Shown: positions 1,884 to 26,766 of the stretch, piece after piece
Layout: each line of letters begins with the position of its first letter
How positions within the stretch are numbered: position 1 is the stretch's first letter
Source of the DNA: Bryobacterales bacterium
Lineage (GTDB): Bacteria > Acidobacteriota > Terriglobia > Bryobacterales > UBA6623
Reading direction: 5' to 3'
Assembly (NCBI GenBank): GCA_022826925.1
Contig: JAJDTX010000011.1
Location: forward strand, 62,001-126,000
DNA: 64,000 nt
The notes under the pieces: generated by a model
Databases searched by the model: none
What the model saw: the letters and a program-made list of their open reading frames with translations, nothing else
Told to the model about the DNA's origin: nothing
Translations under genes and position numbers: made by a program

Positions 1884-3818
1884 GTGAATTCGGACGTCCC
1901 AGAGTTGCCTAGCAACTCCGCCGAAGATGGTCCCGCGCCAGCGTTGCCAGGGCCGCCGAGCGACGGCCCCGCAGAGGAAGTGCCGCCGGCTGCTGCAGAC
2001 CAGAGCGCGGCCCCGGCCGATCCGCAGCCGGAGGGGCAAGAGGAGAGCGCGGCCAGCCCGCAGCCTCCAAGCACGCCAGCCATGCCGGCTATGCCCGGCG
2101 AACCGGCAGACGACGACTTCTTGGACGACGATGACGAGATCGAAATCCCCGAGGATGTCGGTTACGACCAAATTGTCAAGACCACGGACGCCGAGCCGTC
2201 CGCACCCCCCGAGACCGCCAAGGAACTGCTCCGTGGCACAGTCGTGAGCAAGCGCCACGACGGCGTCTTCGTCGATATCGGCCAGAAGGCCGAGGCATTT
2301 CTCCCGTTCGAGCCCAGCAAGCAGTCGGGCGAACAGCCCGAAATCGGCGAATCGATCGAAGTCGTCGTTACCGGCCAGTCGCATCAAGGCTACCTGCAGC
2401 TGAGCAGCTTGCAGACCCAGCGGCCGAGCAGCTGGTTTCAACTCGAGGCGGCCTTCAATTCCGGCAGCGCGGTGCTCGGCAAGGTCATCGGGACCACCAA
2501 GGGCGGGCTTTCCGTAGACGTGGGCGTGCGCGCGTTCATGCCCGCGTCGCGCTCGGGCGAGAGAAGCGACGAAGGCCTACAGGCGCTCGTGGGCCAAGAA
2601 ATCCGCGCGCGCATCGTCCAGTTCGACGAGGCCGACCGCAACGTCGTGCTCGACCGGCGGGCGGTGCTGAACGAGGAGCGCCACCGCTCACGCGAAGAGG
2701 CCATCGCCAATCTCAGTGTCGGGGAGACGGTGCCCGGCACAGTCCGCAGCATCCGCGACTTCGGAGCCTTCGTGGACATCGGAGGCATTGATGGCCTGTT
2801 GCACATCAGCGACATCGCGTGGCGGCACATCAAGACCCCGGCCGACGAACTTCACGTGGGCCAGAAGATCCAAGTCAAGATCCTCAAGATCGACCGCGCC
2901 TCGCAGAAGATCGGTGTCGGACTGAAGCAGACGCTGCCAGAGCCGTGGAGCGAGGTCCCCGACCGCATCTTCGTCGACGAGACCATCGAGGGCACGGTGA
3001 CCAAGCTCAAGGAATTCGGGGCATTCGTCGAAGTGCTCCCCGGGGTGGAGGGCTTGGTTCGGATCTCGGACATGTCGTACACCCAGCGGGTCAGGCATCC
3101 CAGCGAGCTAGTCCGGGCCGGCGACGTAGTCAAGGTGCTCGTCAAGAACGTAGACGTCAAGCGCAAGCGAATCGGCCTGAGCCTCAAGGAGGCGCTCGGC
3201 GACCCTTGGAAGAAACTGCCGGAAGAACACCCGGTGAACAGCGTCACGACCGGCAAGGTGCGCAAGATCATGCACTTCGGCGCGTTCGTGAACATCGCCG
3301 AAGGTGTGGACGCCCTGCTGCACATTTCAGACATCACCTCCGACCGGCGACTGAACAGCCCCGCGGAAATGCTTCGGGAGGGGCAGGATGTCCGGGTGAA
3401 GATATTGGAAATCAATCTCGACGACCGCAAGCTCCGGGTCGGGATGAAACAACTTGAACCGACCGAGGTCGAATCGGCCATGGATCAGATGGCAGTTGGT
3501 GAGATCCTGACGGGGCGGATCGCCAAGATCGAGGCTGGCAAAGCAACGGTGGAGATAGGCGACGGCGTGACGGGCGTCTGCTCGATCAAGCCCAAGAGCG
3601 CTACCAAAAAGAGCGTCGCACTCGGGCAGACTTCAGACTTGGGCTCTCTGAAGAGCATGCTGGAATCAGCCTGGAAGGGATCGGACGACGGCGAACAGGA
3701 TCCCGCACTGTCGGAGTCGAGCGCCGACGAGGAACCGCTGACATCCGGCTCGATTCACACGTTCAGGGTGGAAAGGCTCGACAAGGCCAACGGCGTGATC
3801 GAACTGACCAGGGTCTAG
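1884..3818 (+). CDS. S1 RNA-binding domain protein (ribosomal protein S1-like)
   Basis: RNA-binding protein probably acting in translation initiation, as S1 does in recruiting mRNA to the 30S subunit. After an acidic, Pro/Ala-rich and apparently disordered N-terminus of about 110 residues come about five S1 (OB-fold) repeats. Repeats 3-5 show the typical FGAFV and hydrophobic-LxHISD/VRISD pattern; the first two are less typical and a sixth near residues 540-590 is degenerate. The GTG at 1884 is preferred over the TTG at 1872 because GGAGAAG sits 6 bases before it. Length (644) is above the usual 560 because of the N-terminal extension. It shares the palindromic CTAG stop with the convergent efflux gene. 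Whether it is the sole S1 of the genome cannot be told here. Confidence 0.85.
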   Translation: MNSDVPELPSNSAEDGPAPALPGPPSDGPAEEVPPAAADQSAAPADPQPEGQEESAASPQPPSTPAMPAMPGEPADDDFLDDDDEIEIPEDVGYDQIVKTTDAEPSAPPETAKELLRGTVVSKRHDGVFVDIGQKAEAFLPFEPSKQSGEQPEIGESIEVVVTGQSHQGYLQLSSLQTQRPSSWFQLEAAFNSGSAVLGKVIGTTKGGLSVDVGVRAFMPASRSGERSDEGLQALVGQEIRARIVQFDEADRNVVLDRRAVLNEERHRSREEAIANLSVGETVPGTVRSIRDFGAFVDIGGIDGLLHISDIAWRHIKTPADELHVGQKIQVKILKIDRASQKIGVGLKQTLPEPWSEVPDRIFVDETIEGTVTKLKEFGAFVEVLPGVEGLVRISDMSYTQRVRHPSELVRAGDVVKVLVKNVDVKRKRIGLSLKEALGDPWKKLPEEHPVNSVTTGKVRKIMHFGAFVNIAEGVDALLHISDITSDRRLNSPAEMLREGQDVRVKILEINLDDRKLRVGMKQLEPTEVESAMDQMAVGEILTGRIAKIEAGKATVEIGDGVTGVCSIKPKSATKKSVALGQTSDLGSLKSMLESAWKGSDDGEQDPALSESSADEEPLTSGSIHTFRVERLDKANGVIELTRV

Positions 3819-5245
3819 GGAGCCCGCGCCTGCTGAACGGGCGGCGAGTCGCTAAAGCTGCCGCCCAAGGCGAGGTGCAAGTCGACTCGATTGTCAACCC
3901 TGGCTCGCTGGAGGGCGAGCACTGCACTCTGGGTCTCAAGAACGGATCTTTGCAGGGCAAGGATTGAAAATATGTCGCCCATGCCCGCCGCGTAGCGCTG
4001 CTCTGCCAGATCGATCGCCGCGCGGGTGGTGGTCTGGGAATCTTGCAGCAAGCGCTGCTGGTTCTGCAGCGTCTCCTCCGCCGCGAGCGCGGACTCCACT
4101 TCCAGATACGCCTTCCACATGAGGCTCTCGTAGTTGGCGGCCGCCTCGCGGGAACGCGCTTCCGTCGCCTGCACGTTGGCCTTCAGGCGCCCGCGATTGA
4201 AGAGCGGCTGCGCAATCCCGAGCGCGTAGCTCCATGCGTTCAGGCCGGGGTTGACCAAGTCGAGCAAGCGATTGCTGGCCGTGCCAGCTGTCGTCGTGAG
4301 CGCGAAGCCCGGACGCAGCGCCGCCCGCGCCCCCACGATCCGGGCGTCCGCTCCCAGCAGCGCTTGGTTGGCAGCAATCAGGTCGGGCCTGCGCTGGACC
4401 AGCTCAGACGGCAGACCCGCTGGAACCTGAGATGGGAGACTGGGCAACTCGGCCGCCAGCGCCCGCTCGCCAGCGGGATACTCGCAGGCCAGTACCTCGA
4501 CTTGGCGCACGAATCTGTCACGCGCCCGCTCGTGCTCCCGCACTCTCGCGCTGGCCCTTTCAATGTCGCTCTCGGCGACCCGCACATCGGACGGCGCTCG
4601 CGACCCGTGCAAGTAGCTCTCCCGCGTCCAGCCCGCTACCGCTTCCAAGTGTTCCACCACCGCTTGCGCGGCCTCGACTTGGCTGTGAGCCTCGACGGCG
4701 GCGAACCATGCCTTGGCAACTTGCCCGCTCAGGGACAGGCGCACGGCGAGCCGGTCAGCCTCCTGGGCAACAATGCCGGCATCTGCGGCCAGCTTCTGCG
4801 AGCTAAGCCGGTTCCAGAGGTCAGCCTCCCATCCAATATTGAACGTCAGGCCCGCGTTCGAGTACGTGCTCGTCAGGACTTGGTCAGAAAGGCCCGGAAA
4901 CGGCAGCCCTACGAAATTCTGGCGCTGTCGGATCCGGCTGGCGCCGATATTTATCTCCGGCCAGTCCGAGGCGCCGACGACGAGCCGCTCTTGGACCGCA
5001 ACTTCGATCCTGGCGGTGGCCGCTTGCAGGCTCTGGCTGCAGTCCAGCGCCTTACGAATCGCGGCATCGAGTCCCGGGTCGTCCAAGTAGGCCCACCAGT
5101 CAGAGCCGGGAGCCGATAGCTGGGTCGCCGCCCCCTGCCAGGCCTCTGGTGCCGGAACATTGAACTGGTGCACAGGCAGTTCCACCTGCTTCGAGCATGC
5201 TGCAACCACTAGGGCCGACACTGCGATTGCCAATCGAAGGTTCAT
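3815..5245 (-). CDS. outer-membrane efflux lipoprotein, NodT/TolC family
   Basis: Outer-membrane channel of a tripartite efflux pump. The N-terminus is a lipoprotein signal with lipobox LVVAAC, acylated Cys about residue 17. The rest has two outer-membrane-efflux repeats with long Ala/Gln/Glu-rich helices, such as SQSLQAATARIEVAVQER and the GIAQPLFNRGRLKANV turn typical of NodT-type factors. Length 476 is normal. The RND operon at 13.0-17.4 kb has an adaptor and a permease but no outer-membrane component, so this gene is a plausible partner although it is 8 kb away and on the other strand. It lies downstream of the Rieske oxygenase on the same strand, separated by about 235 bases. Confidence 0.9.
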   Translation of the reverse strand: MNLRLAIAVSALVVAACSKQVELPVHQFNVPAPEAWQGAATQLSAPGSDWWAYLDDPGLDAAIRKALDCSQSLQAATARIEVAVQERLVVGASDWPEINIGASRIRQRQNFVGLPFPGLSDQVLTSTYSNAGLTFNIGWEADLWNRLSSQKLAADAGIVAQEADRLAVRLSLSGQVAKAWFAAVEAHSQVEAAQAVVEHLEAVAGWTRESYLHGSRAPSDVRVAESDIERASARVREHERARDRFVRQVEVLACEYPAGERALAAELPSLPSQVPAGLPSELVQRRPDLIAANQALLGADARIVGARAALRPGFALTTTAGTASNRLLDLVNPGLNAWSYALGIAQPLFNRGRLKANVQATEARSREAAANYESLMWKAYLEVESALAAEETLQNQQRLLQDSQTTTRAAIDLAEQRYAAGMGDIFSILALQRSVLETQSAVLALQRARVDNRVDLHLALGGSFSDSPPVQQARAP

Positions 5246-5480: not shown

Positions 5481-6521
5481 CTAGCCAGTCGTTTGCTGGT
5501 CGGGGTAGAACTGCTCACAGTAGCGTCGATAGACCCCGATCTCGCCATCGGATCGGCAAAGTCGCGGCCGGGACTTGTGCTGCTTCCGTGCCCATATCTC
5601 CACGTCCTGCATGACGTCTCGCTCTTACGCGGAGATGATGATCTTGTTCATGAGCGGCGCACGAAAGCTCACCGGCAGAAATCTCAGTCCCACGATGGGC
5701 CGCTTCGGCCGGCGCATCTCGCGCGCCTGGCCGGCGAGCACAATCTCGACGAGCCTGCCGTCGACCGGAGCGGTGAGCACCCATAGCCGCGTATCCATCC
5801 CGATGGAGCGCTCACGGACTTCGACGTACGAATAGCCGAGGCCGAAAATACGGGTTACGGCTGCGACGTCGAAGACGACCTTGACGATGCCCGCGATCCG
5901 CCGCGTGCGCCTGAAGTCAAAGCAGGTCTCGAGTACTGCACCGTCGACCGACGTTTGCCCGACCTGCTTCACGTTGTCGTAGCCATGCACGTACCGAAGG
6001 TGGGCGAGGTCCACCGAATTCTCGGCGATGTCTTGAGGGTGGCCCGGAAACCGGACCGTCCGGAATTCCAAGCCGCTCCAATCGGGTCCAGACGGCGGGT
6101 CCGCAGGCAGTCTCCACTGAGGCGGCCGCCCATCGATCCCCCACCATGCGAAGACCATCCCGAGCAGCTCCCGCGTCTCGAACACCCTGAGTGTGGTGGC
6201 CCTTGGGGGAGGCGCGAAGGGGGTGGCGACGCATTGGCCCGATACGTCGTACTCGAAGCCGTGAAACGGACAGACAAGACGGCCGTCGCGCACCCGGCCA
6301 CCTGCAGCCGGAGCTAGGTCGGCTCCAAGGTGGGGGCACACCGCCTGTGCCACGCAAACATTCTCATCGGAACCGCACCAAGCCACGATTTCTTGGCCGA
6401 GCCAGGTCTTCTGGATCAGTCCCGTCTCGAGGATGGACTTGCGGCTGGCGACAAAGTACCAGCCCTCGGGAAAGGGGAAGAGCGGAACGCTACCCCCTAG
6501 ATCGGTGCGGTCCGTGTCCAT
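5481..6521 (-). pseudogene. Rieske [2Fe-2S] non-heme iron oxygenase, interrupted by in-frame TAA
   Basis: Oxygenase alpha-subunit type protein resembling KshA and cholesterol 7-desaturase (DAF-36/Neverland) enzymes, which act on steroids. The Rieske cluster site is CPHLG near residue 60 with CPFHGFEYD after it. The mononuclear iron site is ENSVDLAHLRYVHG near residue 180, supplying two His. Translation from ATG 6521, which has a GGAGGG box, stops at a TAA (5625-5627) after 298 residues. The same frame then continues 47 codons to a TAG at 5481-5483 and encodes the conserved family tail with QDVEIW, CRSDGEIG and YRRYCEQFYP. As I recall, the third iron ligand, an Asp, lies in the QDVEIW motif. 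Without readthrough the product should lack that ligand. A single-base error in the assembly is the main alternative. Confidence 0.85.
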
Positions 6522-7050: not shown

Positions 7051-8421
7051 ATGCCGAGAAACGTTGCAATTGTCGGTGGTGGAGTCTCTGGGCTTGGGTT
7101 GGCATGGGCGCTGCAGCAAAACCCTGAACGATTCGATTTTCGGCTATTCGAAGCAAGGTCTCGGATCGGCGGTAACGCAGTTACTGCCGATATGCTGCAA
7201 GATGATGGCACTTCGATTCCGTTCGATATTTCTGTCACCGCTTGCATTCCATCCGTATACCACCATATTCTCCAATTTATGCAAAAACACGACATCGAAT
7301 TAGTCGATACAAGGTTTAGCTACAGCGTCAGATATCGTGGTGAAGTCTATGCCCACGATTTCGATTCCGATATTAGGAGACAGTTGCAACCAGAAATCGA
7401 GAGATTTCAAAGGCTCTTGAAACTCTTGAAGCGATTCGGCCGACTCACGCGCTCTAGCTCCAGACTCCTCAATGCTCTCAATCCGTTCAACTATGTCAGC
7501 ATGAGCTTTGTTCTCAACCTAGGCCGGTTCTCTGGTGATTTCAGGTACAAAATACTGAAGCCGATGTTCGTCAATTTCTTGATGGCAACAAACGTGTTCG
7601 ACATGCCTGTCTCGCTGTTCTCTCGATATTTGGAGTTCTTTGATATTGAATTCGCGACGCCAATGCAAACTTGGGAACGAGGCACACGCCGCATCTATGA
7701 GGAGTTGTCGGCTTCGTTCAAGGACAAGATATACCTTGCCCGACCGGTTCGAAAGGTATACCGGCGTAAGTCTGAGATCGTTGTGGAAGACGAGAATGGG
7801 AAGACGGAGACATTTGACGATATAGTTTTTGCTTGCAATGCGAATCAAACATTGATGATCCTAGACAGACCGACCTTATTGGAGAGCTATCTGCTCTCTT
7901 CAATCCGTTACGAGAGCGAATTACACAATCACACGATCGTTCATTTCGATGCTTCAGTTCTGCCAGACAACGATGTCAAGCCGCTCGCCACGCGAAGCAA
8001 CCACATCGAACAATATGGTGTAAGACCCGACAACTATGAAATTACCTACATCATGCACAATCAGCAGCCTTGGGCAAATCGATCAGACAAGCCATGCTTG
8101 GTAACCTACAATCCGATCAGTCACATCGATGAAGAGAAAATCGTTAAGAAATGGTGGTTTCAGCACATCGTGCACGATGTTCGACACGTATCTTTTCTGA
8201 TCCATCTGTTTCGTTTTGTTCAGGGCAAGCGACGAACATGGCACTGCGGCGCTCACACTCTAATTAACAGTCAGGAGACCTGTTTCGTCTCCGGACTTGT
8301 TACGGCAAGGCAACTCGGAGCGGACTATCCGTTTCAGGATCCCGAAACAGGAAGGTGGTTCAACTACTACGGGCGCATGATGTACGGTTGGCGCTTCAGA
8401 AAGGCTCGAACTACTGCTTGA
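7051..8421 (+). CDS. FAD/NAD(P)-binding amine-oxidase-like oxidoreductase
   Basis: Flavoprotein of the amine oxidase/protoporphyrinogen oxidase fold; the substrate cannot be read from sequence. The N-terminus is a dinucleotide-binding site (VAIVGGGVSGLGLAWAL, residues 5-21) followed by an acidic FEARSRIGGNA motif that contacts the FAD ribose. The C-terminal CFVSGLVTARQLG segment fits the second flavin contact seen in this superfamily. It resembles proteins of the COG2907 type, often found beside cyclopropane-fatty-acid-synthase-like methyltransferases. The 456-residue gene is visibly AT-richer than its neighbours with different codon choice (many AAT, GAT, TTC/TTT, ATA), suggesting acquisition from another source. 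It sits between a Rieske oxygenase and a decayed insertion sequence. Confidence 0.75.
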   Translation: MPRNVAIVGGGVSGLGLAWALQQNPERFDFRLFEARSRIGGNAVTADMLQDDGTSIPFDISVTACIPSVYHHILQFMQKHDIELVDTRFSYSVRYRGEVYAHDFDSDIRRQLQPEIERFQRLLKLLKRFGRLTRSSSRLLNALNPFNYVSMSFVLNLGRFSGDFRYKILKPMFVNFLMATNVFDMPVSLFSRYLEFFDIEFATPMQTWERGTRRIYEELSASFKDKIYLARPVRKVYRRKSEIVVEDENGKTETFDDIVFACNANQTLMILDRPTLLESYLLSSIRYESELHNHTIVHFDASVLPDNDVKPLATRSNHIEQYGVRPDNYEITYIMHNQQPWANRSDKPCLVTYNPISHIDEEKIVKKWWFQHIVHDVRHVSFLIHLFRFVQGKRRTWHCGAHTLINSQETCFVSGLVTARQLGADYPFQDPETGRWFNYYGRMMYGWRFRKARTTA

Positions 8422-8921: not shown

Positions 8922-9708
8922 ATGCCAAGAGCGCGGATGGCCGTGCATTCGATTCAAGAGATTCTGAGGTTGCGCCACGAGTGCGGCTGTTCCCCGAGGG
9001 GAAATCGCCCGCTCGTGCGCGCTGTCGGCGGGCACGGTCAACCGGCTACTGCAGCAGGCTGAGCAGGCCGGGCTGGAATGCCCCTTGCCGCCGGATTGGG
9101 ACGAGGCGGAATCGCACCAGCGGCTGTACGGACAGCCGGCGGGAGCGCGGCCGAGCACCCTCCGCGAGGCGCTGGACTTCGCGGCGCTGCACAAGCAACG
9201 GTCCCGGCGCAAGCATCTGGCGTTGTAGCTGGTGCAGCAGGAGCATCGCGAGCAGCATCCGGACGGGTACAGCTACAGCCAGTTCTGCGAGCTATACCGG
9301 GACTGGAAAGTGCGCCAGGACTTGGTCATGCTGCAGGAGCACAAGGCCGGGGAGCGGATCTTCGTCAACTACGCCGGCGAGACGGTACCGGTCTACGCAG
9401 CGGAGCGGAGCGGGCCGCGCGAGGCGCACGTCTTCGTGGCGGTGCTGCGGGCGACTTCGTTCTTCTACACGGAGGCGAGCTGGGGCGAGGACATCGAGTC
9501 CTGGATCAGCGCGTATGTGCGCACCCTGGAGGACTTCGGCGGGGCGGCGCAGGTGTGGGTGCCAGACAACCTGAAGTCCGGCGTCACGCGCGCTTGCCGC
9601 TACGAACCGGTCCTGAACCGGAGCTACCGGGACATGGCGCGCCGCTACGGGATGGCGATCGTGCCCGCGCGCCCGTTTCGCCCCAAGGACAAGTCAATGG
9701 TTTCATGA
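8922..9708 (+). pseudogene. istA: IS21-family transposase IstA, broken and truncated
   Basis: Remnant of the DDE transposase of an IS21-family element. The start MPRARMAVHSIQEILRLRHECG is the normal IstA N-terminus. An extra G in the run at 8998-9001 shifts the frame: deleting it restores EIARSCALSAGTVNRLLQQA and then PDWDEAE. An in-frame TAG at 9226-9228 follows. The longest intact piece, from 9229, carries HPDGYSYSQFCELYRDW, the catalytic-core residues around FVNYAGETV and VPDNLKSGV. The sequence ends abruptly after RPFRPKDK, about where IstA continues for another 200 residues. istB is absent. The element is clearly dead. Confidence 0.85.
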
Positions 9709-10487
9709 TGCGTCCCTTCCGAACTGTCGTGCGGCGTCGGCCAACTCCGCCCCTCCCTGATCGTAACCTGCCGGCAGATCGTACGTGGTGCGTCTTCGGG
9801 ATGCTCGCGCTGACGGTGGACCAACTGATGCGCTGGACGCTTTGAGCGTGGCGCCCAAACCCCGCCAGCAGCCAGGCCTAGCGCCGCCCGGAACGGCCGG
9901 GACAAGCGCACTGCGCCTGCCTCTGGCACTGGCCCGCCAGTTGTGAGTAATTCAGGACGATTCCTGCGCGAATGTACGGCAATTGGTCACTGAACCCAGC
10001 ACTGCCAGCACGCTCTCGGCCAAATTGACCCGCGCCGGCTGGGATTCTGCGAAAGCGTCTCAGGTATGCTTTCGTACCGGGAAGGTTTCGTCGTGCGCCC
10101 AACCGGGCGAATCGCTTCGACTCCTTTCCTGCGGCGAGCGAGGGTGGCACGATGACGTGGCAACGAGCTGCGGTCACGATCGAACGCAGTTTGGTTCCGA
10201 TAGTTTCGAAGGTGGCGGCACGCTCGCGTCTCCGGATGCGCAGGAGCATCGCGCCATTGACGCTGCCGTGCATGAGTCCCGCACATCCGTTAGGATTCGG
10301 ATGGACAGGTGTCGAAGATGAGTGCCCGGCAGCAACGTATGGCGCCGGTCTCGCAACGCCCCAGCGGCGTGGGTGTTACGATCAGAGCCGAGCCACCCGC
10401 CCTCCCTCTCGGTGCATCCTTGGACGATCGGAACGCGACCGAGGGTTGAGCGCTACGCACTGATCTTCGAATCAGGATTGGAAGCAC
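9709..10487. other. intergenic region after the IS21 remnant
   Basis: Nearly 780 bases with several short overlapping open frames on both strands, none with a recognisable family. The piece at about 9796-9845 (VFGMLALTVDQLM) resembles the tail of some transposase-like proteins but is too short to assign. The expected right end of the IS21 element and istB are not here. It is best read as decayed mobile DNA in front of the GPP34-P450 gene. Confidence 0.4.
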
Positions 10488-12509
10488 GTGACCAAGACCG
10501 AAGAGACTCCGATATGCATTGCTGAAGAGCTGATCCTTCTGATGCTCAACGAGCAGAGCGGCTATCTGGAGATGGTGCCAGGCTGGGACTTCTCATGCGT
10601 CATGGCGGGCACCATCATCGCGGATCTTGCGTTGATGGGTCGCATCGACGCCGACTTAGAGTCGCTGTATGTCATCGATCCCACTCCGACAGGAGACGAC
10701 CTGCTCGACCCGACGCTCAAGGAAATCGCTGAAGCACAGGAAACTTCGGACACCCAATTCTGGGTAGAACGCAATACATCGCGCTGCGATGAAATCATCA
10801 GCGGCACGCTCGAACGCTTGGTGAACCGGGGGATCCTCGACTACGAGAGCGGCGATTTCTGGAGGCTCTCACGCGGCGTTTCGCGCTCAGGAAGCTATCC
10901 GACGTCCGACAACACGATCCGCCACGAAGCCAAGGCAAGAATCCTGGACATCATCTTGAACGACACCGTCCCGGATCCGCGGGACGCCATCCTGGTCGCC
11001 TTGATGCACTCATGGAACGGGTTCAAGCTACTCCTGGCGCCCGAAGAGCTCGACGAAAAGCTCGAGCGGATCGCGACCATCGCCCAGCTGGATCTGATCG
11101 GTCGCTCGGTCGCCAGCGCGGTGAATGAGAGCTCCATCAGACCGAAGACCCGGCGCTCTTTGCTAACCAAACCGATCCCGCAACTCCGGATCGTCGACAT
11201 CCTGCGACAGCGTGACTTCCTAAAGGGCAACATCCCCAAGGCAATGTATGGGATTTTCCGGAAGCATGGGCCGGTCGTGAGGATCCCTTTCAAGATGGCC
11301 AAGGCGCCGCTAGTCGCGCTGATGGGGGTGGAGGCAAACCGGTGGATCAACAAGTATGGCCGGTTTTATGTACGCTCCAAGGACTACATCCAAGGTCTGG
11401 AACACGTGTTCGGCGCATCTCGAAGCCTCCCTGGCATGGATGGCGCTGAACACTACAGGATGCGCAAGTCGCTTAGCGCCGCCTATTCCCGCGGTGCGCT
11501 TGCTCCGCGGCTACCGGAGTTGATCTCCCATTGCAGGAATTCGATCGGCTCGTGGAAGCAAGGCGACGTATTCAGTGTGACCGAGACGTTCCAGAAGCAC
11601 ATGAGCAGTCAAGTCTCGGGTCTGGCGATTGGGGTGGATTGCAGCGAATACGTCGACGAGTTGCTTGAATACGAACACCGCGCGCTGATAACACAGGTCC
11701 AGGGAGCACTGCCGAAGTTCATGATGTCGACGCCGAGGATGAAGCGTGCGCGCAAGCGTGTCGGCCAGCTACAAGAAGCAATCCTCGCATCGCACACGCC
11801 GGCCCAACGAAAGGGCAAGCCACCTGACATTGCCGACGCGATACTCGACCTGCATCGCAACGACCCGCAGTTCCTGCCGGAGACGGACCTCACGTTCCCG
11901 TTTGTCGCGTCCATGGTCGCCAGCATCTATCTCGGAAGCGCGCTAGGCTTCGCAGTCTATTGCATGGTTCGCCACCCGGATGTCTACGCGAGAATCCGCC
12001 GAGAAGCCGAGGCGCTCTTCGGTAACGGGCGCGAGCCAAGAGCGGAGGAGTTCACGCTCGATGCGGTCGACGTGTGCCACCGCCTCTGCCTAGAGTCGTC
12101 GCGCTTGTACCCGGTGATTCCCTGGCAATTGAGAACGGCCATGAATCCCTGCGTTATCAACGGCTTCGAAATACCGCCTCCGACGCGACTGTTGATTTGC
12201 CAGACGGCACCGCACTACGACGGCGATCACTTCAAGGACCCGTTGAAATTCGACATCGACCGTTACCTGCCTGATCGGGGTGAGCATTTGGTGCCAGGCG
12301 CGTACGCGCCCTATGGCCTAGGCACGCACATGTGCCTAGGAAACCGGTGGGTGGAGCTTCAGATGGGAGTCAACATCCTGCTCATCGCATACCACTTGGA
12401 TCTCGAAGTGTTGCCGGAAAACTATAGGCTCGCCATCAATCCGTTCCCGACAGCTGCCCCGAACAAGAAGCTGAAGTTCCGGGTCGCGCGCGTGGCAAAT
12501 CCAGTCTGA
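10488..12509 (+). CDS. GPP34 domain-cytochrome P450 fusion
   Basis: A 673-residue two-domain protein. Residues about 8-225 match the GPP34 (GOLPH3-like) family: AEELILLMLNEQSGYLE, a GTIIADLALMGRI helix, the hallmark PTGDDLLDPTLKEIAE, ERLVNRGIL and PDPRDAILVALMH. Eukaryotic GOLPH3 binds PI4P membranes. Residues about 235-673 are a P450: ExxR as LCLESSRLYP, the PERF-like FDIDRYLPDR, and the heme loop YAPYGLGTHMCLGNR with the Cys thiolate (Tyr in place of the usual Phe). The I-helix reads ASIYLGSALGF and lacks the acid-alcohol pair. There is no transmembrane anchor, so the GPP34 part may tether the enzyme to membrane. The start is GTG. Substrate is unknown; the sterol methyltransferase 5 kb away suggests a sterol or related lipid. 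Confidence 0.9.
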   Translation: MTKTEETPICIAEELILLMLNEQSGYLEMVPGWDFSCVMAGTIIADLALMGRIDADLESLYVIDPTPTGDDLLDPTLKEIAEAQETSDTQFWVERNTSRCDEIISGTLERLVNRGILDYESGDFWRLSRGVSRSGSYPTSDNTIRHEAKARILDIILNDTVPDPRDAILVALMHSWNGFKLLLAPEELDEKLERIATIAQLDLIGRSVASAVNESSIRPKTRRSLLTKPIPQLRIVDILRQRDFLKGNIPKAMYGIFRKHGPVVRIPFKMAKAPLVALMGVEANRWINKYGRFYVRSKDYIQGLEHVFGASRSLPGMDGAEHYRMRKSLSAAYSRGALAPRLPELISHCRNSIGSWKQGDVFSVTETFQKHMSSQVSGLAIGVDCSEYVDELLEYEHRALITQVQGALPKFMMSTPRMKRARKRVGQLQEAILASHTPAQRKGKPPDIADAILDLHRNDPQFLPETDLTFPFVASMVASIYLGSALGFAVYCMVRHPDVYARIRREAEALFGNGREPRAEEFTLDAVDVCHRLCLESSRLYPVIPWQLRTAMNPCVINGFEIPPPTRLLICQTAPHYDGDHFKDPLKFDIDRYLPDRGEHLVPGAYAPYGLGTHMCLGNRWVELQMGVNILLIAYHLDLEVLPENYRLAINPFPTAAPNKKLKFRVARVANPV

Positions 12510-13053: not shown

Positions 13054-14268
13054 GTGAGAAGAGGGATAGGTTACCTCGTAGCCGCTGCTATCGTCGGTGC
13101 CTCGATATGGCTGGCGTCCTATCTGGTGTCGCTAGCACCCCAGCCGGAACAACAGGAACGGGGCCCCCAGATTCCGTTCGCTCAGACCGGGCGGGTCGTG
13201 GCTGGCTCCGGTGCGATCCCCGTATTCGGAGCGGGCACGGTGAGAGTCAGTGCCGATGTCGATATCGCTCCGCAAGTCAGCGGTCGAGTCTCCTGGATGG
13301 AGCCGGGATTCCAGAGCGGTGGCCGCGTCGAGAATGGTCAGGCAATATTCCGCATCGAAGACACCGACTTTCTCCACCGCGTGCGGGAAGCTGAGATCGC
13401 GATCGAGGCCCGGCAGGCAGAGCTCGCAGTGCTCCAAGAGGAGGCGGCGTTCGCCAAGGCCCAATTCGAAAAGTACTCGCGCCTGCAACTCGAGACCGGC
13501 TCGTCGGTAATCCAACCCGGGCCCTTAGCCCTGCGAGAGCCTCAGATCAGGGCGTCCCGGGCCGCACTGGGACACGAAAATGTACGGCTTGCCGCTGCCA
13601 AGCTGGCCCTGTCCCGAACCGAGGTGCGAGCGCCCTTTGACGGCTATGTGCTCGAAGAGTCATTGGAAGCCGGCCAGATGGTGACTTCCGGCCAAGTCGT
13701 CGGACGCCTCTCCACGGCTGACGCCGTCGAGGTCGTCGTGCCGCTGTCGGATGCGATGGCAGCCTTGATCCCACGACTGTGGAAGCTTCGCGCGGGAGAT
13801 TCCGACCGTCGGGTCGCCGCCCGCGTGACAGCTGCCTACGGCGATGCAAGCTATGCCTGGCAGGGATACATAGACCGGGCTGAAGTTTCGCTCGACGAGC
13901 AGACACAAACGATCGACGTGATCGTCCGCGTGCCCAACCCCTTCGCCTCGGGCGACCCAGTCGAGGGGGCCATCAGCCCCGGGGGCTCTCCTCCGCTTCT
14001 GGTGAGGAAGTTCGTTGAGGTCGAGATCCAAGGCATTTCCCCGGAAAGCTACTTTCGCGTGCCGAGGCCCGCGCTGAGGCCGGGTCCCGAGGTATGGGTG
14101 GTCGAGGACCGAACGGTGAGTATTGTCCCCGTACGCGTCCTGCAGCGTATCGACGATGAAGCCACCGTGGTCGGGGGCCTGCAAGACGGGCAAGTAGTCA
14201 TTACCGGTGGCATTCAGTTTGCCACCCCAGGCATGGTTGTGCGGACCGTGGCCGATCTGGGGCAATGA
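13054..14268 (+). CDS. RND efflux periplasmic adaptor (membrane fusion protein)
   Basis: Adaptor linking an inner-membrane RND permease to an outer-membrane channel. It starts at GTG 13054 with an N-terminal membrane anchor (GYLVAAAIVGASIWLASYLV). Next come the first half of the lipoyl/barrel-sandwich domain (IAPQVSGRVSWMEPGFQSGGRV), a helical hairpin rich in Ala/Glu/Gln, and the second half (LSRTEVRAPFDGYVLEESLEAGQMVTSG). A beta-barrel and a membrane-proximal domain follow. Length 404 is normal. Its stop overlaps the permease start by 4 bases (ATGA), indicating translational coupling. No outer-membrane gene follows. Confidence 0.92.
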   Translation: MRRGIGYLVAAAIVGASIWLASYLVSLAPQPEQQERGPQIPFAQTGRVVAGSGAIPVFGAGTVRVSADVDIAPQVSGRVSWMEPGFQSGGRVENGQAIFRIEDTDFLHRVREAEIAIEARQAELAVLQEEAAFAKAQFEKYSRLQLETGSSVIQPGPLALREPQIRASRAALGHENVRLAAAKLALSRTEVRAPFDGYVLEESLEAGQMVTSGQVVGRLSTADAVEVVVPLSDAMAALIPRLWKLRAGDSDRRVAARVTAAYGDASYAWQGYIDRAEVSLDEQTQTIDVIVRVPNPFASGDPVEGAISPGGSPPLLVRKFVEVEIQGISPESYFRVPRPALRPGPEVWVVEDRTVSIVPVRVLQRIDDEATVVGGLQDGQVVITGGIQFATPGMVVRTVADLGQ

Positions 14269-17200
14269 GCCAGAACGACGAGCAATCAGCGGAACCCCGT
14301 GGGCCGATCGCCTATATGGCGGGCAACAGCGTCGCGTCCAATCTGCTGATGTTCGGCATCCTCGCTGCGGGCCTCGTGTCGCTGACCGGCCTCGAGCAGG
14401 AAGGGTGGCCCGAGGTGCCCTTCTATCAGTTCGAAATCTCCGTGACGCATCCCGGGGCAACGCCCGAAGAGGTGGAGGAGGCCATCGTCGTCAAGATCGA
14501 GGATGAGGTCCGGGGACTGGCGGACGTGAAGGCGGTCAGGTCCGTGGCGGCCCCGGGAATAGCGTCCGTCAGGGTCGAATTCAAATCGGGCACGGACATG
14601 GGCGCGAAGAGGGACGAAATCGAGTCGGCGGTCGGGCGTATTCAGACGTTCCCGGGCGGAGCCGAGCGGCCCCAAATCCGGGAAATGACCAACGCCCAGA
14701 GCATGATGCGCCTCATCCTCTACGGCGACGTTCCCGAGCGATCACTGAAAGAGCTCGCCTACCGTATCGAGGACGATCTCGCTTCGCTCCCGAACGTGTC
14801 CCAGGTCGAGACCAGCGGTGTGCGCAACTACGAGGTCTCGATCGAAGTGCCACTGCAGTGGCTGCGCACCGTTGGGCTTACTCTGACCGATATCGCCAGT
14901 ACGATCCGCCGCGGTTCCCTAGATCTGTCTGCGGGCAGCATCAATACCGAGGAGTCCCAAGTGCGGATTCGGACCCTCGGTCAGAGCTACGATCAGCTGG
15001 ATTTCGAGGACATCGTCATCCTCGGCCGCGACGACGGCACAGTGGTGCGCCTGGGTGATATTGCCGACGTGCGCGACGGCTTCGAGGACTCAGATTTGAT
15101 CGTGCGGCACCAGGGCCACCCAGCCGTGTTCGTCGAGGTTTCGCGAGCCGACGGCGAGAGGGTGATGGATGTGTCGCGCGCCGTTCGGGAGCATGTTGCG
15201 AGCGAGATAACGCCCTCGCTCCCCGAAGGCGTGGGCATCAATATCTGGAGCGACGACTCTTCGGTCTTCGTGGAGCGCGGCCTCATTCTCCTCAAGAACG
15301 GAGCCTTGGGGCTGTTGCTGGTCTTGCTCGCGCTGGGCCTTTTCCTCGAACTCCGGCTGGCATTTTGGGTCGCCGTCGGTCTCGGCGTTTCCGCGATCGG
15401 CGCCCTGGCCGCCATGATGATCTTCGACATCCCGCTCCATGAGATATCGCTCTTCGCGTTCGTGCTCGCGATCGGAATCGTGGTAGACGATGCGATCGTC
15501 GTGTCCGAGCACATTCACCAAGAGCGAATGCGCGGAACGGCGGGGGTTGTCGCGGCGATCCGGGGTGCGCGACGAATCAAGGTGCCACTGGTCTTCGCCG
15601 TGCTGACAACGATCGTGGCATTCCTTCCGCTGCTCTTCATACCCGCGGGCTTCGGAGAGGTCTGGAAGGCACTGCCGATCGTCGCCATTGCCACGCTGGT
15701 GATTTCGCTGGTCGAATCGCTGCTGGTGCTGCCCAACCATCTATCCCATCATCTGCACGGCCCGGATTGGGTGCCCGGCACGGGCATGGCACGAATCGTC
15801 TCCCGGATCCAGAATCGTGTCGATTCCTGGTTGAACAGCTTTGTACAGGGTCCCCTCGATCGTGGGATACAGTTCGCGACGGACTGGCCCGAGGTGACGG
15901 TCGCGGGGGCCGTCGCGCTGCTCATCCTGAGCATTTCCCTCCTTCCGGCCGGCATCGTCCCCACCACCTTCGCAACAGCGGTCGAAGGCGACTTCGCAAT
16001 CGCCACCCTCGAGATGCCGGACGGTACGACCTCGCAGCAGACGTACGCAGTGGCGCAACAGTTGGAATCAGCCGGTCGCCGGGCCATGGAGCGGCTTTCC
16101 GAAGGCCGGCCCGCGGATGCGCCTCCTCTGCTGTCCGGCGTTACAGTCGTCGTCGGTCAGCGTTCGCGGATCGAAACCGGGGGCCTCAACCCCTCGCCCA
16201 CCCTGAACCCGGAAGCCAATGTCGCCAGCATCGAGTTCAAGCTCCTGAGCGCGCAGCAACGGCGCATCACTTCGGGAGAAGTCGTGCAGGCTTGGCGCGA
16301 GGAGATGGGTGTCATGCCTCATGTGCGCGCGGTCACCTTCATCAGCGAGATCTACACACTGGGCAACCCGGTAGAGGCCGCGCTGTCGCACCCGGACCCG
16401 GAACGCCTGGTCGAGATCGCATCTTCCGCAGTCGCTGGCCTGGGCGGAGTCGGAGGCGTCTTCGACATACGCTCTGATCACACTCGCGGCATCCCGGAGG
16501 TTCAGGTGGGATTGCGTCCCGAAGCGCGCACCCTCGGCCTCACGCTTGATGATCTTGCCTGGCAGACGAGAGCCGCCTTCTTTGGCGTAGAGGCCGTGCG
16601 GGTGCAGCGAGGACGTGAAGAAGTTCGGGTCTATGTGCGGCTACCCGAGGAGCAGCGTAACGCGATCACCGACGTCGAGAGATACTGGCTGCGTACGCCA
16701 ACCGGTGCCGACGTGCCGTTAAGCCGCGTGGCTTCGCTGAGTTCGGGCACATCGCCGCCGGCAATCCGGCGCCAAGACGGCCAGCGCATTGTCACGGTTA
16801 CCGCTGACGTGGATACCAGTGTGATTTCCGCCGCGACCGCCAATGACATTCTGGAGAACACTATCCTCGCGGAACTCATCGACGAAAACCCGGAACTCAC
16901 TTACACCTTCGGAGGTGAACAGCAGCAACAGCTCGATTCTTTAGGCGGTCTATATCGCGGATTCGTGATCGCGTTGCTCATGATCTTCGCGCTGCTAGCC
17001 ATTCCGCTACGCTCCTACACCAAACCGTTCATCGTCATGGCCATCATCCCGTTTGGGTTCATCGGGGTGATCCTGGGTCACTGGGTCCTTGGGGTAGCCG
17101 TGAGCGCGGAGTCCTTTGTCGGGATATTCGGCCTCGCCGGCGTGGTGGTGAACGATTCCCTAGTGATGATCGATTTCACCGATCAGAAGCTCAGGGAAGA

Positions 17201-17444
17201 AATCCCGGCGCGAACCGCGATCATCGAGGGCGCGAAGGGACGGTTTCGCCCGATCATGCTTACTTCCCTGACCACATTCCTCGGCTTCACCCCCCTTATT
17301 TTCGAAGACGCCATTCAGGCGCAGTTCTTTGTTCCCTTCTCTGCCTCGATCGGCTGCGGCATCCTCTTCACCACGGCCCTCGTGATGTTTCTGGTGCCGG
17401 CGCTTTCCTCGTTCCATCAGCGCCTGACCTCGGCGCGGGGCTGA
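14265..17444 (+). CDS. RND-family efflux permease
   Basis: Proton-driven inner-membrane pump of the AcrB/hydrophobe-exporter type, 1059 residues. It shows the N-terminal helix, two large periplasmic loops and two blocks of membrane helices (for example GALGLLLVLLALGLFLEL and FVIALLMIFALLAIPL). The paired aspartates of the proton relay are visible in AIGIVVDDAIVVSE, and the repeat-related VVVNDSLVMIDF is present near the C-terminus. It is the second gene of a two-gene operon with the adaptor. Placement between a P450 and a sterol-methyltransferase-like gene makes lipid export an attractive guess, but the substrate is not readable from sequence. Confidence 0.95.
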   Translation: MSQNDEQSAEPRGPIAYMAGNSVASNLLMFGILAAGLVSLTGLEQEGWPEVPFYQFEISVTHPGATPEEVEEAIVVKIEDEVRGLADVKAVRSVAAPGIASVRVEFKSGTDMGAKRDEIESAVGRIQTFPGGAERPQIREMTNAQSMMRLILYGDVPERSLKELAYRIEDDLASLPNVSQVETSGVRNYEVSIEVPLQWLRTVGLTLTDIASTIRRGSLDLSAGSINTEESQVRIRTLGQSYDQLDFEDIVILGRDDGTVVRLGDIADVRDGFEDSDLIVRHQGHPAVFVEVSRADGERVMDVSRAVREHVASEITPSLPEGVGINIWSDDSSVFVERGLILLKNGALGLLLVLLALGLFLELRLAFWVAVGLGVSAIGALAAMMIFDIPLHEISLFAFVLAIGIVVDDAIVVSEHIHQERMRGTAGVVAAIRGARRIKVPLVFAVLTTIVAFLPLLFIPAGFGEVWKALPIVAIATLVISLVESLLVLPNHLSHHLHGPDWVPGTGMARIVSRIQNRVDSWLNSFVQGPLDRGIQFATDWPEVTVAGAVALLILSISLLPAGIVPTTFATAVEGDFAIATLEMPDGTTSQQTYAVAQQLESAGRRAMERLSEGRPADAPPLLSGVTVVVGQRSRIETGGLNPSPTLNPEANVASIEFKLLSAQQRRITSGEVVQAWREEMGVMPHVRAVTFISEIYTLGNPVEAALSHPDPERLVEIASSAVAGLGGVGGVFDIRSDHTRGIPEVQVGLRPEARTLGLTLDDLAWQTRAAFFGVEAVRVQRGREEVRVYVRLPEEQRNAITDVERYWLRTPTGADVPLSRVASLSSGTSPPAIRRQDGQRIVTVTADVDTSVISAATANDILENTILAELIDENPELTYTFGGEQQQQLDSLGGLYRGFVIALLMIFALLAIPLRSYTKPFIVMAIIPFGFIGVILGHWVLGVAVSAESFVGIFGLAGVVVNDSLVMIDFTDQKLREEIPARTAIIEGAKGRFRPIMLTSLTTFLGFTPLIFEDAIQAQFFVPFSASIGCGILFTTALVMFLVPALSSFHQRLTSARG

Positions 17445-17661: not shown

Positions 17662-18714
17662 TCACCCCCGGAGAGGCCGGCGCGCCACGAAGCAGTAGAG
17701 CGGCGTGAAGATCCCGGCCCTGCCCCCCGCGACATAGGCGCCTGCGGTCCGATCCAGCAACGCGACGACCTCCGCCGAGCCCTTCGGGAACACACCGAGA
17801 GATTCGGCCATCTTGGATCCCATCCTCAATGCCTTGCGGCCCACCGGAATCCGGACGAAATCGCCGCCGATCAGTCCACCCCGGGTTTCCATCGGCCGGT
17901 ACCACGGCGTGATCGGACCATGCTGGTCGACAGCGAGGTCCGACCCCTCCATGATTTCGAATCCCGCGGTTTCCAGCGCCCGGTTTACCTCCCGAAACGT
18001 CGCGATTTCCTTGAGCGCGATGCCGTGCATGAGTTCCCGCTTGATTTCGCGATGCCGATCGTCACCGGGGTCGAACGTGTCCGTCATGCACATTTCCTGC
18101 CCCCAGAAGAGGGCACCCGGTTTCAGGACGCGGTAGATTTCGGCGAACGCAGCCGCCTTGTCGGCCGCGTGGCAGGTCGATTCGATCGCGTAGCCACTGT
18201 CGAACGTCTTGTCCGCGATGGCGCTCATTTCCATGAAGCTGCACACCAAGCAGTCGGTCATGTCATCGAGCCCCGCAGCGGAGTTCAGCCGCTTGGCTTT
18301 GTTGCACTGGACTTCACTTATGTTGACCCCGACGACCCTGACACCGGCCTCGCGGGCGACCCGGCGCATCGGACCACCGATCCCGCAGCCGATGTCGACT
18401 ACCGTCATTCCCGGCCGCAGCTCGAGCTTGGAGACCATGAGCTGCTGGTGCCGGATCTTGGAGTCCTCCAAGCTCTCGCCAGGCGACAGCGGCGCGAAGT
18501 GCAGGGATTCTCCCCAACCCAAGACCATGAATTCGCTACAGAGGTCGTAGTATTCCCTGACGGTCGGCGTGTGGTCGTAGCCCGCTTCGGAGTCCTGGTG
18601 GGACACATTGTTGGTCCATCGTTCGAAGTCCTGTACGCGGCGGACGACGTTCGATCCGTCGAAAGCGGCCTTCAGCCCATTGGATAGTCTGCGGAGTTGC
18701 GCGGCGGGCCTCAT
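17662..18714 (-). CDS. sterol 24-C-methyltransferase-like (Erg6/SMT family)
   Basis: SAM-dependent methyltransferase resembling eukaryotic Erg6/SMT1, which alkylates the sterol side chain at C-24. With the ATG at 18714, which has GGAG 8 bases upstream, the product is 350 residues. Region I reads EFMVLGWGESLHF (residues 61-73); the SAM motif is VVDIGCGIGGPMRRVAR (105-121); region IV is YAIESTCHAADK. Homology continues past the Rossmann fold into the SMT-specific C-terminal domain: ITPWYRPM, FPKGSAEVV and AGGRAGIFTPLYCFVARRP parallel yeast Erg6. That rules out most generic methyltransferases, such as tocopherol or cyclopropane types. The Tyr-Glu-Tyr of yeast region I is Met-Val-Leu here, so the substrate or product may differ. 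It is transcribed toward the RND operon. Confidence 0.85.
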   Translation of the reverse strand: MRPAAQLRRLSNGLKAAFDGSNVVRRVQDFERWTNNVSHQDSEAGYDHTPTVREYYDLCSEFMVLGWGESLHFAPLSPGESLEDSKIRHQQLMVSKLELRPGMTVVDIGCGIGGPMRRVAREAGVRVVGVNISEVQCNKAKRLNSAAGLDDMTDCLVCSFMEMSAIADKTFDSGYAIESTCHAADKAAAFAEIYRVLKPGALFWGQEMCMTDTFDPGDDRHREIKRELMHGIALKEIATFREVNRALETAGFEIMEGSDLAVDQHGPITPWYRPMETRGGLIGGDFVRIPVGRKALRMGSKMAESLGVFPKGSAEVVALLDRTAGAYVAGGRAGIFTPLYCFVARRPLRG

Positions 18715-19358
18715 GGCAGCTTCTCCAGCCACCCCAAGAACGCCGGGCGGGGCAGTGACGCGCTTGTCCCGCATAGCTCACAACAGGGGGCGGCATGGGG
18801 CATGAAACGGCTTCAACTAGCGAAACGGACGCATTTCGGCGCCGTGGAGGCCACCAAGCAGCTACGATGGGGCGCCCCGCGCACCAATAGGGCTTGCTGA
18901 AACCAGCGTCTGTAGAAACAGCGACGAGCCTTTTGCAACATTGCCGAGGTAGCGGATCCTAGAGTTGAGGAGACTGGGGCGCCGGGCCGGGTCGAAACAA
19001 GTTCAATCTCTGTTGGATGACGGAAGTTGTTGTCGGTGATTTACGTGCTACCGAAGTATGCACCCCATGCCCGCACACTGTATCACAATCGATCACCCCA
19101 GAGTCCAGTCAGGGCCGTCAGAGGGTGTGTGCATTGTGCCGTTAAGACCTGCCGCATCTTGGCTAGCTAGCAGCCCTGGTTCGTTGGCCAATCGCGAGAC
19201 TGACACAGCGCAAGACCTTGCCGCATTCTTCCGCCGCGCCCCCGCTCTGGCCCGCGGCATATCACGGCACGGCAAGAAGCGCCAGACTGGAAGTCCACCA
19301 TCGGACGCTTTGCTCCGTCGCAGGTCCAGGACGAGGCCCCGACTCCGGAGCGCTTCGC
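18715..19358. other. intergenic region between SMT-like and lyase genes
   Basis: About 640 bases. The ATG at 18772-18774 extends the methyltransferase frame by 20 residues but lacks a ribosome-binding site and conserved sequence. Near 18895-18960 there is somewhat AT-richer DNA (GGGCTTGCTGAAACCAGC) that could be an old insertion-sequence edge, unproven. An open frame at 19058-19798 runs antisense into the lyase gene and is a shadow. No gene is supported. Confidence 0.4.
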
Positions 19359-25809: not shown

Positions 25810-26766
25810 CTACAGAGCCAGCTCGCCCTTGTAGACCATGTCCTTGAGGCGGAACTTGCGCTTGATCTCTTTGCCAAAGATGGCCATCGCCATCCCGGCG
25901 CCGCGACCCGCTCCCCCGGCCCGCTGGCCGCCGCCACCTTGGCCTTGGCCGCCACCTCTCTGCTGGCGCTGGCCGCCCTGGCCAGCCTGACCGCGCTGGC
26001 CACGACCTTGGGGGCCGCCGCCTCCGGCACCCGGACGCATGCCCGCCATCATCTCGCGCTCGAACTTCATGAAGAACTCCACTTCTCTGTCTTCAAGCAT
26101 GATCGGGTCGTTTTGGGGGAAATAGTACTTCAGCGTCGCGCGCTGGTTCGCCTGGACCTCTACCTTGGCCGGGTAGATGTCGTCTTTCTTCTTGCGCCGC
26201 AAGCGGGCTGTGGTCGCAAGCTTTTCCGGCTCCTCCTCGAAGCGAGCCAAGAGTGCGGGAAGGCCCTCAACGGCCACGATGTAGTACGGCTCTTGGTTTT
26301 CCAGGTACATCTGCATCTGGGGGGTAAGCTCCGTGCCCTCGCCGAGGTTGAACTTGACTTTCGCGTGCTTCATCGGAGCGGCCTCTTCGAATCGAACCAC
26401 CAAGTTCAGCGAGGGAGCCTGCTGAGGCATCTGCCCGGCACCGCCGCCACCGCCGCGGCCGCCGCCACCGCCGCGACCGCCGCCACCGCCGCCAGCGCCG
26501 CCACCGCCGCTTGGAGCACCTCCGCCGCGGCGTCCGGCCCCGGCCCCACCGCCGCCGCTAAAGGCGGCCACCGGCGCACCCATCGGGATGCTCAGGCGCT
26601 TGGCCCATGGAGAGTCCATGTACATCTTCTCCACTTCCTTGGGGGACCACTGCATGAAGTCCTTCTTGTCCCAGAATCCGGCACCGTACAATGCCGTGGT
26701 CAGGACCACCAAGCCGAGCAGGACCGGCAGCAAGGTTTTTGAACGTGACGAGTTTAGGCGCGACAT
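25810..26766 (-). CDS. glycine-rich hypothetical protein with N-terminal membrane segment
   Basis: The 318-residue product has an N-terminal signal or anchor (TLLPVLLGLVVLTTALYGAG), then a WSPKEVEKMYMDSPWAKRL motif. I associate that motif with an uncharacterised family common in acidobacteria. Two low-complexity Gly/Arg/Gln-rich blocks lie near residues 70-115 and 248-295. Between them is an ordered region with a KKDDIYPAKVEV segment and a FMKFEREM helix. The C-terminus ends in FGKEIKRKFRLKDMVYKG. Probably periplasmic or envelope-attached; function unknown. The Gly blocks are encoded by GCC/CCG/CGC-rich DNA that produces false open frames on the other strand. Confidence 0.75.
   Translation of the reverse strand: MSRLNSSRSKTLLPVLLGLVVLTTALYGAGFWDKKDFMQWSPKEVEKMYMDSPWAKRLSIPMGAPVAAFSGGGGAGAGRRGGGAPSGGGGAGGGGGGRGGGGGRGGGGGAGQMPQQAPSLNLVVRFEEAAPMKHAKVKFNLGEGTELTPQMQMYLENQEPYYIVAVEGLPALLARFEEEPEKLATTARLRRKKKDDIYPAKVEVQANQRATLKYYFPQNDPIMLEDREVEFFMKFEREMMAGMRPGAGGGGPQGRGQRGQAGQGGQRQQRGGGQGQGGGGQRAGGAGRGAGMAMAIFGKEIKRKFRLKDMVYKGELAL

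Follow-up and report, generated by a model that had tools for sequence, protein, structure and literature searches.

What does a sterol methyltransferase (SMT)-like protein act on in a bacterium that may not make sterols of its own? The gene in question lies in a 64,000-nucleotide stretch of DNA (the window) from a 140-kb contig of a Bryobacterales genome (G000, phylum Acidobacteriota; 6.0 Mb, 196 contigs, 93% complete). A sequence-only reading had described its product as one of few bacterial C-24 sterol methyltransferases, with relevance for sterane biomarkers. Its coordinates, 17662..18714, are correct, and its bacterial origin is upheld by the 140-kb contig of a bacterial genome on which it is encoded. 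The coding strand is the minus strand, where the gene starts at an ATG at position 18714 and encodes 350 aa (an upstream in-frame ATG at 18774 gives the 370-aa version of the window ORF); the plus-strand frame across 17662-18714 was rejected as an antisense shadow ORF. We refer to the protein as SMT-A.

SMT-A combines a SAM methyltransferase domain (Pfam Methyltransf_11, 65 bits; the broader CMAS family, 68 bits) with the C-terminal domain typical of SMTs (Sterol_MT_C, 53.5 bits; curated cut-off, 21.7). This pairing places it in the SMT family, as had been proposed, and the motifs quoted in that proposal (GWGESLHF, YAIESTCHA, PWYRPM, KGSAEVV and AGGRAGIFTP...FVARRP) are all present in the translation. 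Among eukaryotic reference sequences, blastp gave 250 bits to Arabidopsis SMT1 and 207 bits to yeast Erg6, at 36-40% identity over 338-345 columns, and the best solved non-SMT protein reached 83 bits (phmmer). No NCBIfam family scored above its own cut-off; the top match was the sarcosine/dimethylglycine methyltransferase family NF041675, at 68.1 bits against a cut-off of 550, and none of the 24 NCBIfam families listed is of the tocopherol type. Judged by these scores, SMT-A is nearer to SMTs than to sarcosine-type methyltransferases. The predicted structure (pLDDT 84.6) has the class I methyltransferase fold among its best 50 of 1969 matches, which include MitM, AtmM, TleD and a geranyl-diphosphate methyltransferase; the sequence search of solved chains returned a single 24-sterol C-methyltransferase by name, of 231 aa. 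The reading frame is not a chance one: 27 further members of the clade share 57-91% identity with the window protein, and dN/dS is 0.31-0.48 (15 pairs from six close orthologues), which indicates moderate purifying selection.

SMT-A departs from other SMTs at a fixed set of residues. We compared 28 members of its clade (clade A) with the yeast and Arabidopsis SMTs and with 12 other bacterial SMTs, using yeast numbering. All 28 members carry the replacements Y81M, F89L, A221W, Y223Q, W225M and M360L and a Cys at 362, and all keep W85, H90, F91, D125, E195 and H199, while E82 is a variable residue kept in a single member. Among the other bacterial SMTs, Y81 is present in 11 of 12, the Glu before GWG in all 12, Y223 in all 12 and W225 in 11; Tyr-Glu before GWG is present in the yeast and Arabidopsis sequences as well. 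Of the claimed match to region I of Erg6, the GWG part stands, but Tyr-Glu before it is Met plus a variable residue, so that the aromatic motif Y81-E-Y-G-W-G-x-x-F-H-F is half kept. Region I, from Tyr81 to Phe91, is described in PMC5711494 as steering the reaction through cation-pi stabilisation. Because these residues are replaced on a kept catalytic scaffold, the substrate site of SMT-A has probably been rebuilt, and its substrate or regiochemistry has likely changed.

The same separation is seen in the phylogeny. In an unrooted IQ-TREE tree of 42 rows, all 28 clade-A rows fall together across a branch with 100/100 support, on the other side of which are the bacterial SMTs of sterol clusters and two eukaryotic SMTs. 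The window protein lies outside the clade of cluster-borne SMTs (clade B). L069, L075, L077 and two partial clade-B proteins were left out of this tree, and L053 (clade A) and L059 were kept for alignment and tree with an X at the internal stop. The latter two SMT genes (L053:8001-9035 and L059:8001-8903) have one in-frame stop each, and are either pseudogenes or the product of assembly errors. A tree of 40 rows rooted on two distant methyltransferases had very long outgroup branches that did not fall on one side; it lacked seven rows of the aligned set and was superseded by the unrooted tree. In the bacterial family to which the window genome belongs, 9 of 18 genomes encode Sterol_MT_C proteins, of two kinds (clade A and clade B) that are about 36-40% identical to each other. 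SMT-A is found in seven of these genomes (G000, G003, G005, G008, G009, G013 and G016). A further SMT type is encoded at L065, L170, L176 and L183 (G035, G019, G024 and G034, respectively), in genomes that gave no match of oxidosqualene cyclase (OSC) grade; region I is intact in L065, the member of this type that was checked.

SMT-A occurs in at least six phyla, Acidobacteriota included. A contig scan, from which 80 of 269 confirmed loci were taken so that its locus counts are minima, yielded at least 21 named clade-A loci (L037-L057; 57-71% identity) in Chloroflexota, Gemmatimonadota, Pseudomonadota, Actinomycetota, Bacteroidota and one unplaced MAG. Within Acidobacteriota, 11 of the 396 genomes drawn (the window genome counted) show matches at 64% identity or higher, and further matches at 35-36% identity represent another SMT kind. 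Phylum labels change five times on the tree, over 20 labelled clade-A rows from five phyla, where the minimum possible is four, and the G016 protein groups with Gemmatimonadota (100/97) although G016 shares its genus with the window genome. These changes and this placement suggest that SMT-A has spread by horizontal transfer, with mis-binning as the alternative. A plasmid search returned 57 records, none covering 80% of the SMT-A query and all below 60% identity. Of the 21 named carriers, at least 9 come from MAG series of sponges; the rest are eight SB06xx bins, which we take to come from the sponge Ircinia, two PNGco bins, Plut_88859 and a CATOSI record. Four of the nine are jk18x bins from the Ircinia study (PMC9531527), and the other five have RHO, IRC or APA names that appear, from their initials, to match the species list of PMC8163846. 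By that list, the RHO bins would derive from the sponge Rhopaloeides odorabile; the carrier G005, from the window's own family, is the MAG Bryobacterales bacterium RHO3_bin_12.

SMT-A lies at the end of a run of genes that recur near it in other phyla. In the window, this cassette starts with an outer-membrane efflux protein (OEP; 3815..5245, minus strand), likely the third part of an RND system, with homologues of 28-30% identity near SMT-A in other phyla. Next are a KshA-like Rieske oxygenase (5625..6521, minus strand; Pfam Rieske and KshA_C, with a CxH..CxxH motif), whose nearest solved relative is 3-ketosteroid 9alpha-hydroxylase, and an FAD-dependent oxidoreductase of the 'amine oxidase' family (7051..8421, plus strand). 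The nearest solved relative of the FAD oxidase is LkcE, a lankacidin enzyme; its homologues are 86% identical in the congener G016 and 74-78% identical near SMT-A in other phyla. These are followed on the plus strand by a GPP34-cytochrome P450 fusion (10488..12509; heme motif YGLGTHMCLG and ExxR), an RND periplasmic adaptor (HlyD/MFP; 13054..14268; TIGR01730, 156.8 bits) with homologues near SMT-A in other phyla, and an RND efflux permease (14265..17444; Pfam ACR_tran, 514.9 bits) for which relatives have 71-97% identical proteins encoded near SMT-A. The heme and ExxR motifs of the P450 and the cluster motif of the Rieske protein are intact in the window. A 255-aa ORF within the cassette (9078..9845, plus strand) may be spurious, having no Pfam or NCBIfam match and no homologue at the compared loci.

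Two neighbouring genes outside this set were also noted. A polysaccharide lyase of family 8 (chondroitin/hyaluronate lyase type; 19359-22250) is encoded beside SMT-A and conserved in G008, G009 and G013, with two copies in the last, and would fit life on animal glycosaminoglycans. The other gene encodes a repetitive, glycine-rich protein (25810-26766) that matches no Pfam family and is kept in close relatives.

Cassette partners were counted at 35 SMT-A loci up to a centre-to-centre distance of 10 kb, or over a shorter span if the contig stopped earlier; in the window itself, the Rieske and FAD oxidase genes fall just past this limit. The GPP34-P450 fusion is present at 22 loci, an RND system at 20, an MMPL protein at 5 (either transporter at 25), the Rieske oxygenase at 14 and the FAD oxidase at 9. 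No OSC gene lies within this distance at any of the 35 loci; G046 is just outside, with 8.9 kb between the start of its SMT-A gene and the cyclase gene. Eight loci have no cassette partner, and among these another P450 is close by in L043 and L054 and an MFS transporter gene is just upstream in L050 and L053. GPP34 alone was dropped as a cassette marker because all 30 genomes searched encode GPP34 proteins, so it is not specific to SMT-A. In G016 (L030:7717-10412) the GPP34-P450 is 548 aa long, compared with about 673 elsewhere, and has no Pfam P450 match; its P450 part may have decayed. The locus in G046 (L169:2820-19562, on C23) holds a sterol cluster (SMT, ERG2, a fusion of squalene epoxidase (SE) and OSC, P450, ERG24, SdmA and an SDR) flanked by SMT-A, GPP34-P450 and an FAD-oxidase gene split across two frames.

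To judge from sequence, SMT-A most likely methylates the side chains of sterols that the cell did not make. Foreign sterols are favoured as substrate because most of the carriers tested show no OSC. In the fuller account, to which we would give an even chance, SMT-A is a SAM-dependent C-methyltransferase of the SMT family that belongs to a mobile cassette for tailoring and exporting foreign sterols. We infer that the substrate would be a sterol with a side-chain double bond, supplied by the sponge host or by sterol-making co-symbionts. Its side chain would be alkylated by SMT-A, oxidation or desaturation would fall to the cassette's P450, Rieske and FAD enzymes, and an RND or MMPL transporter would pump the product to the envelope or outside. 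The putatively mobile unit would comprise SMT-A, GPP34-P450, the KshA-like Rieske oxygenase, the FAD oxidase and the RND or MMPL transporter.

The partners of SMT-A bear on whether its substrate is a sterol. The MMPL partner is 58-61% identical to a protein with a sterol-sensing domain (62.5 bits) at L027, and the sterol transporter BstA is itself assigned to Pfam MMPL (PMC10942540). Homologues of the GPP34-P450 fusion are found near OSC in G012, G043 and G046. Two ERG4/ERG24-family reductases are encoded beside the cassette at L039, and in the window's family the reductase (PF01222) is present in all seven SMT-A genomes, with one copy in G000, versus 1 of the 11 others. The nearest solved relative of this reductase is delta14-sterol reductase, and its gene adjoins that of a Rieske protein 59-61% like the window's in G008, G009, G013 and G016. 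Against a sterol, the ERG4/24-type reductase is absent from 6 of the 21 genomes that had been selected for carrying SMT-A. G023 has the sterol-cluster type only, the other type being present in 14 of the 21, and two of the five named cyclase genomes without SMT-A (G041 and G045) carry an additional, untyped PF01222 match of comparable score. ERG4/ERG24-family reductase, Rieske and DUF1295 genes stand together at L162:7569-16460 (G008), L163, L164 and L166, in what looks like a second steroid-tailoring locus, to which L162 adds a sulfotransferase and two SDR genes.

SMT-A might instead contribute to a natural product exported by the RND system by methylating a non-sterol isoprenoid (squalene, a polyprenyl chain or some other terpenoid, for instance), an explanation that we regard as possible but doubtful. 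The loss of canonical aromatic residues in all 28 members (Y81M, F89L, Y223Q and W225M) makes such a substrate conceivable, and cyclases are seldom found in SMT-A genomes. P450s, LkcE-like FAD oxidases and RND pumps are common in natural-product pathways; as these families are broad, such neighbours would also suit drug efflux and the tailoring of natural products in general. SMT-like triterpene methyltransferases of Botryococcus act on squalene. However, SMT-A has retained Sterol_MT_C, the MMPL protein (related to a sterol-sensing-domain protein), the ERG4/24-type reductase and the KshA-like Rieske oxygenase point to steroid nuclei, and in G046 the SMT-A gene has a full sterol cluster close by.

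Less probable still, and in our view improbable, is that the cell makes sterols de novo, with SMT-A as the pathway's canonical C-24 SMT and the assembly simply lacking the cyclase and epoxidase genes. The two genes had been named as a check on the C-24 assignment, and neither was matched in G000: the profile search of this 93% complete draft gave no SQHop_cyclase_N match, and SE gave no match in G000, the sole genome searched for it. G000 does hold a second Sterol_MT_C protein, of clade B, whose 3' part is preserved at a contig end and is followed by an ERG2 homologue (L003:1-1323, on C43; E 5.5e-62). In the congener G010, a single cluster carries the clade-B SMT (SMT-B), ERG2, an SE-OSC fusion, P450, ERG4/ERG24 and an SdmA-like Rieske gene, and an M28 peptidase gene is positioned after this sterol block. 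In both G000 and G011, the M28 peptidase gene comes directly after the clade-B SMT and ERG2, which indicates that this site lacks the cyclase block. The replaced region I residues of SMT-A also argue against a canonical enzyme. An ordinary SMT of a bacterial sterol pathway was dropped as a candidate because G000 yields no cyclase or epoxidase and the neighbourhood in relatives is different.

The cyclase counts extend this argument beyond G000. An OSC was found in 5 of the 32 SMT-A genomes tested (G023, G040, G044, G046 and G047), so that SMT-A and a cyclase do share a genome in these five, and 27 have no OSC-type cyclase. The 32 comprise 25 named genomes, which are not a random sample, and 7 of the window's family (5/25 and 0/7 with OSC, respectively); G097, G155, G253 and other Acidobacteriota carriers fall outside this set. 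Among the 21 named genomes chosen by SMT-A, one has an OSC-grade match (G023, more than 700 bits to TIGR03463), six have squalene-hopene-cyclase-grade matches only, one has fragments only and 13 have nothing. These absences rest on draft MAGs; gaps will explain some of them, but hardly 27 of 32. A clean split between SMT-A genomes (OSC in 1/21) and genomes with other SMTs (9/9) was abandoned because SMT-A and OSC co-occur in G040, G044, G046 and G047. In the window's family, only G010 and G012 have an OSC, both without SMT-A; the other family cyclases are called hopene cyclases by length and score, one (G011) being typed by NCBIfam, and G009 has an untyped, partial cyclase hit of 44 bits. In G012, which gave no Sterol_MT_C match, SE and OSC genes adjoin a GPP34-P450 fusion and the MMPL protein with the sterol-sensing domain (L027:3210-11262).

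Clade-B SMTs have different surroundings. At 12 clade-B loci in 11 genomes (L062 and L168 are from one genome), OSC, SE, P450, ERG24 and SdmA genes are each present at 10, and the window neighbourhood of SMT-A does not have the make-up of a sterol cluster as defined by OSC, SE, CYP51-like P450, ERG24 and SdmA. OSC is present in all eight named clade-B genomes and in one of the four from the window's family (G010, but not G000, G005 or G011); clade-B-like proteins of 43-50% identity occur in G023 and G046, which have an OSC, and in G030, which does not. With no SE or OSC match, a divergent clade with replaced residues, and a cyclase seldom present in carriers, the C-24 activity and biomarker relevance claimed from sequence are not established for the window gene.

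Two further readings are weaker. SMT-A could be a new type of side-chain methyltransferase with changed regiochemistry, for example one that methylates C-26 and so accounts for side chains of the aplysterol and 26-methylstigmastane types, spread horizontally among non-sterol-making sponge symbionts that remodel host sterols; we think this very unlikely. Equally slim is the prospect that the cassette breaks down or detoxifies host sterols and that methylation is a side reaction or a block in this process. A KshA-like Rieske oxygenase, an RND efflux system, an acyl-CoA dehydrogenase on C43 and, within the window, an AMP-binding ligase and a CoA-transferase III would suit it, but side-chain methylation is not known to be part of any sterol degradation route, and the ligase is syntenic in close relatives only, with one 29% match (L043) among the named loci.

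C-24 and C-26 alkylated steranes are taken as fossils of eukaryotes and sponges, a use already qualified by the existence of bacteria that have complete sterol pathways. Should SMT-A act on foreign sterols, symbionts alkylating sterols made by others would be an added caveat, and searches based on OSC would miss them. If the horizontally spread remodelling type were real, part of the 'sponge' sterane signal would be bacterial tailoring of host sterols.

The rarity of bacterial SMTs assumed in the sequence-only reading is outdated: such enzymes have been known to be functional since 2023 and are active in vitro, according to Brown et al. (PMC10070321). As described there, those SMTs resemble SMT-A in having methyltransferase and Sterol_MT_C domains and in coming from uncultured bacteria, part of them sponge-associated; however, 13 of the 24 tested are in clusters or MAGs with an OSC, whereas SMT-A shares a genome with one in 5 of 32 cases and has its own cassette. 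The SMT-A subtype looks new, and Brown et al. state that C-26 sterol methyltransferases remain to be found. The literature passages searched gave no earlier description of the cassette, including those on the steroid clusters of Ircinia symbionts (PMC9531527), the source of the jk18x MAGs, some of which carry SMT-A. In that account SMT1/ERG6 flanks an ERG24-CYP51-ERG7 operon, with ERG2 in several, a gene order that fits clade B. The MMPL/RND-superfamily inner-membrane protein BstA of Methylococcus, encoded beside sterol genes (PMC10942540), has a counterpart in the SMT-A cassette, but the window transporter is an ACR_tran tripartite system, MMPL being the near neighbour of SMT-A at 5 of 35 loci. 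Eukaryotic Erg6/SMT1 share with SMT-A 36-40% identity, GW..HF, the SAM motif, E195, H199 and the C-terminal domain, and differ from it by Y81M, F89L, Y223Q, W225M and A221W in 28/28 members.
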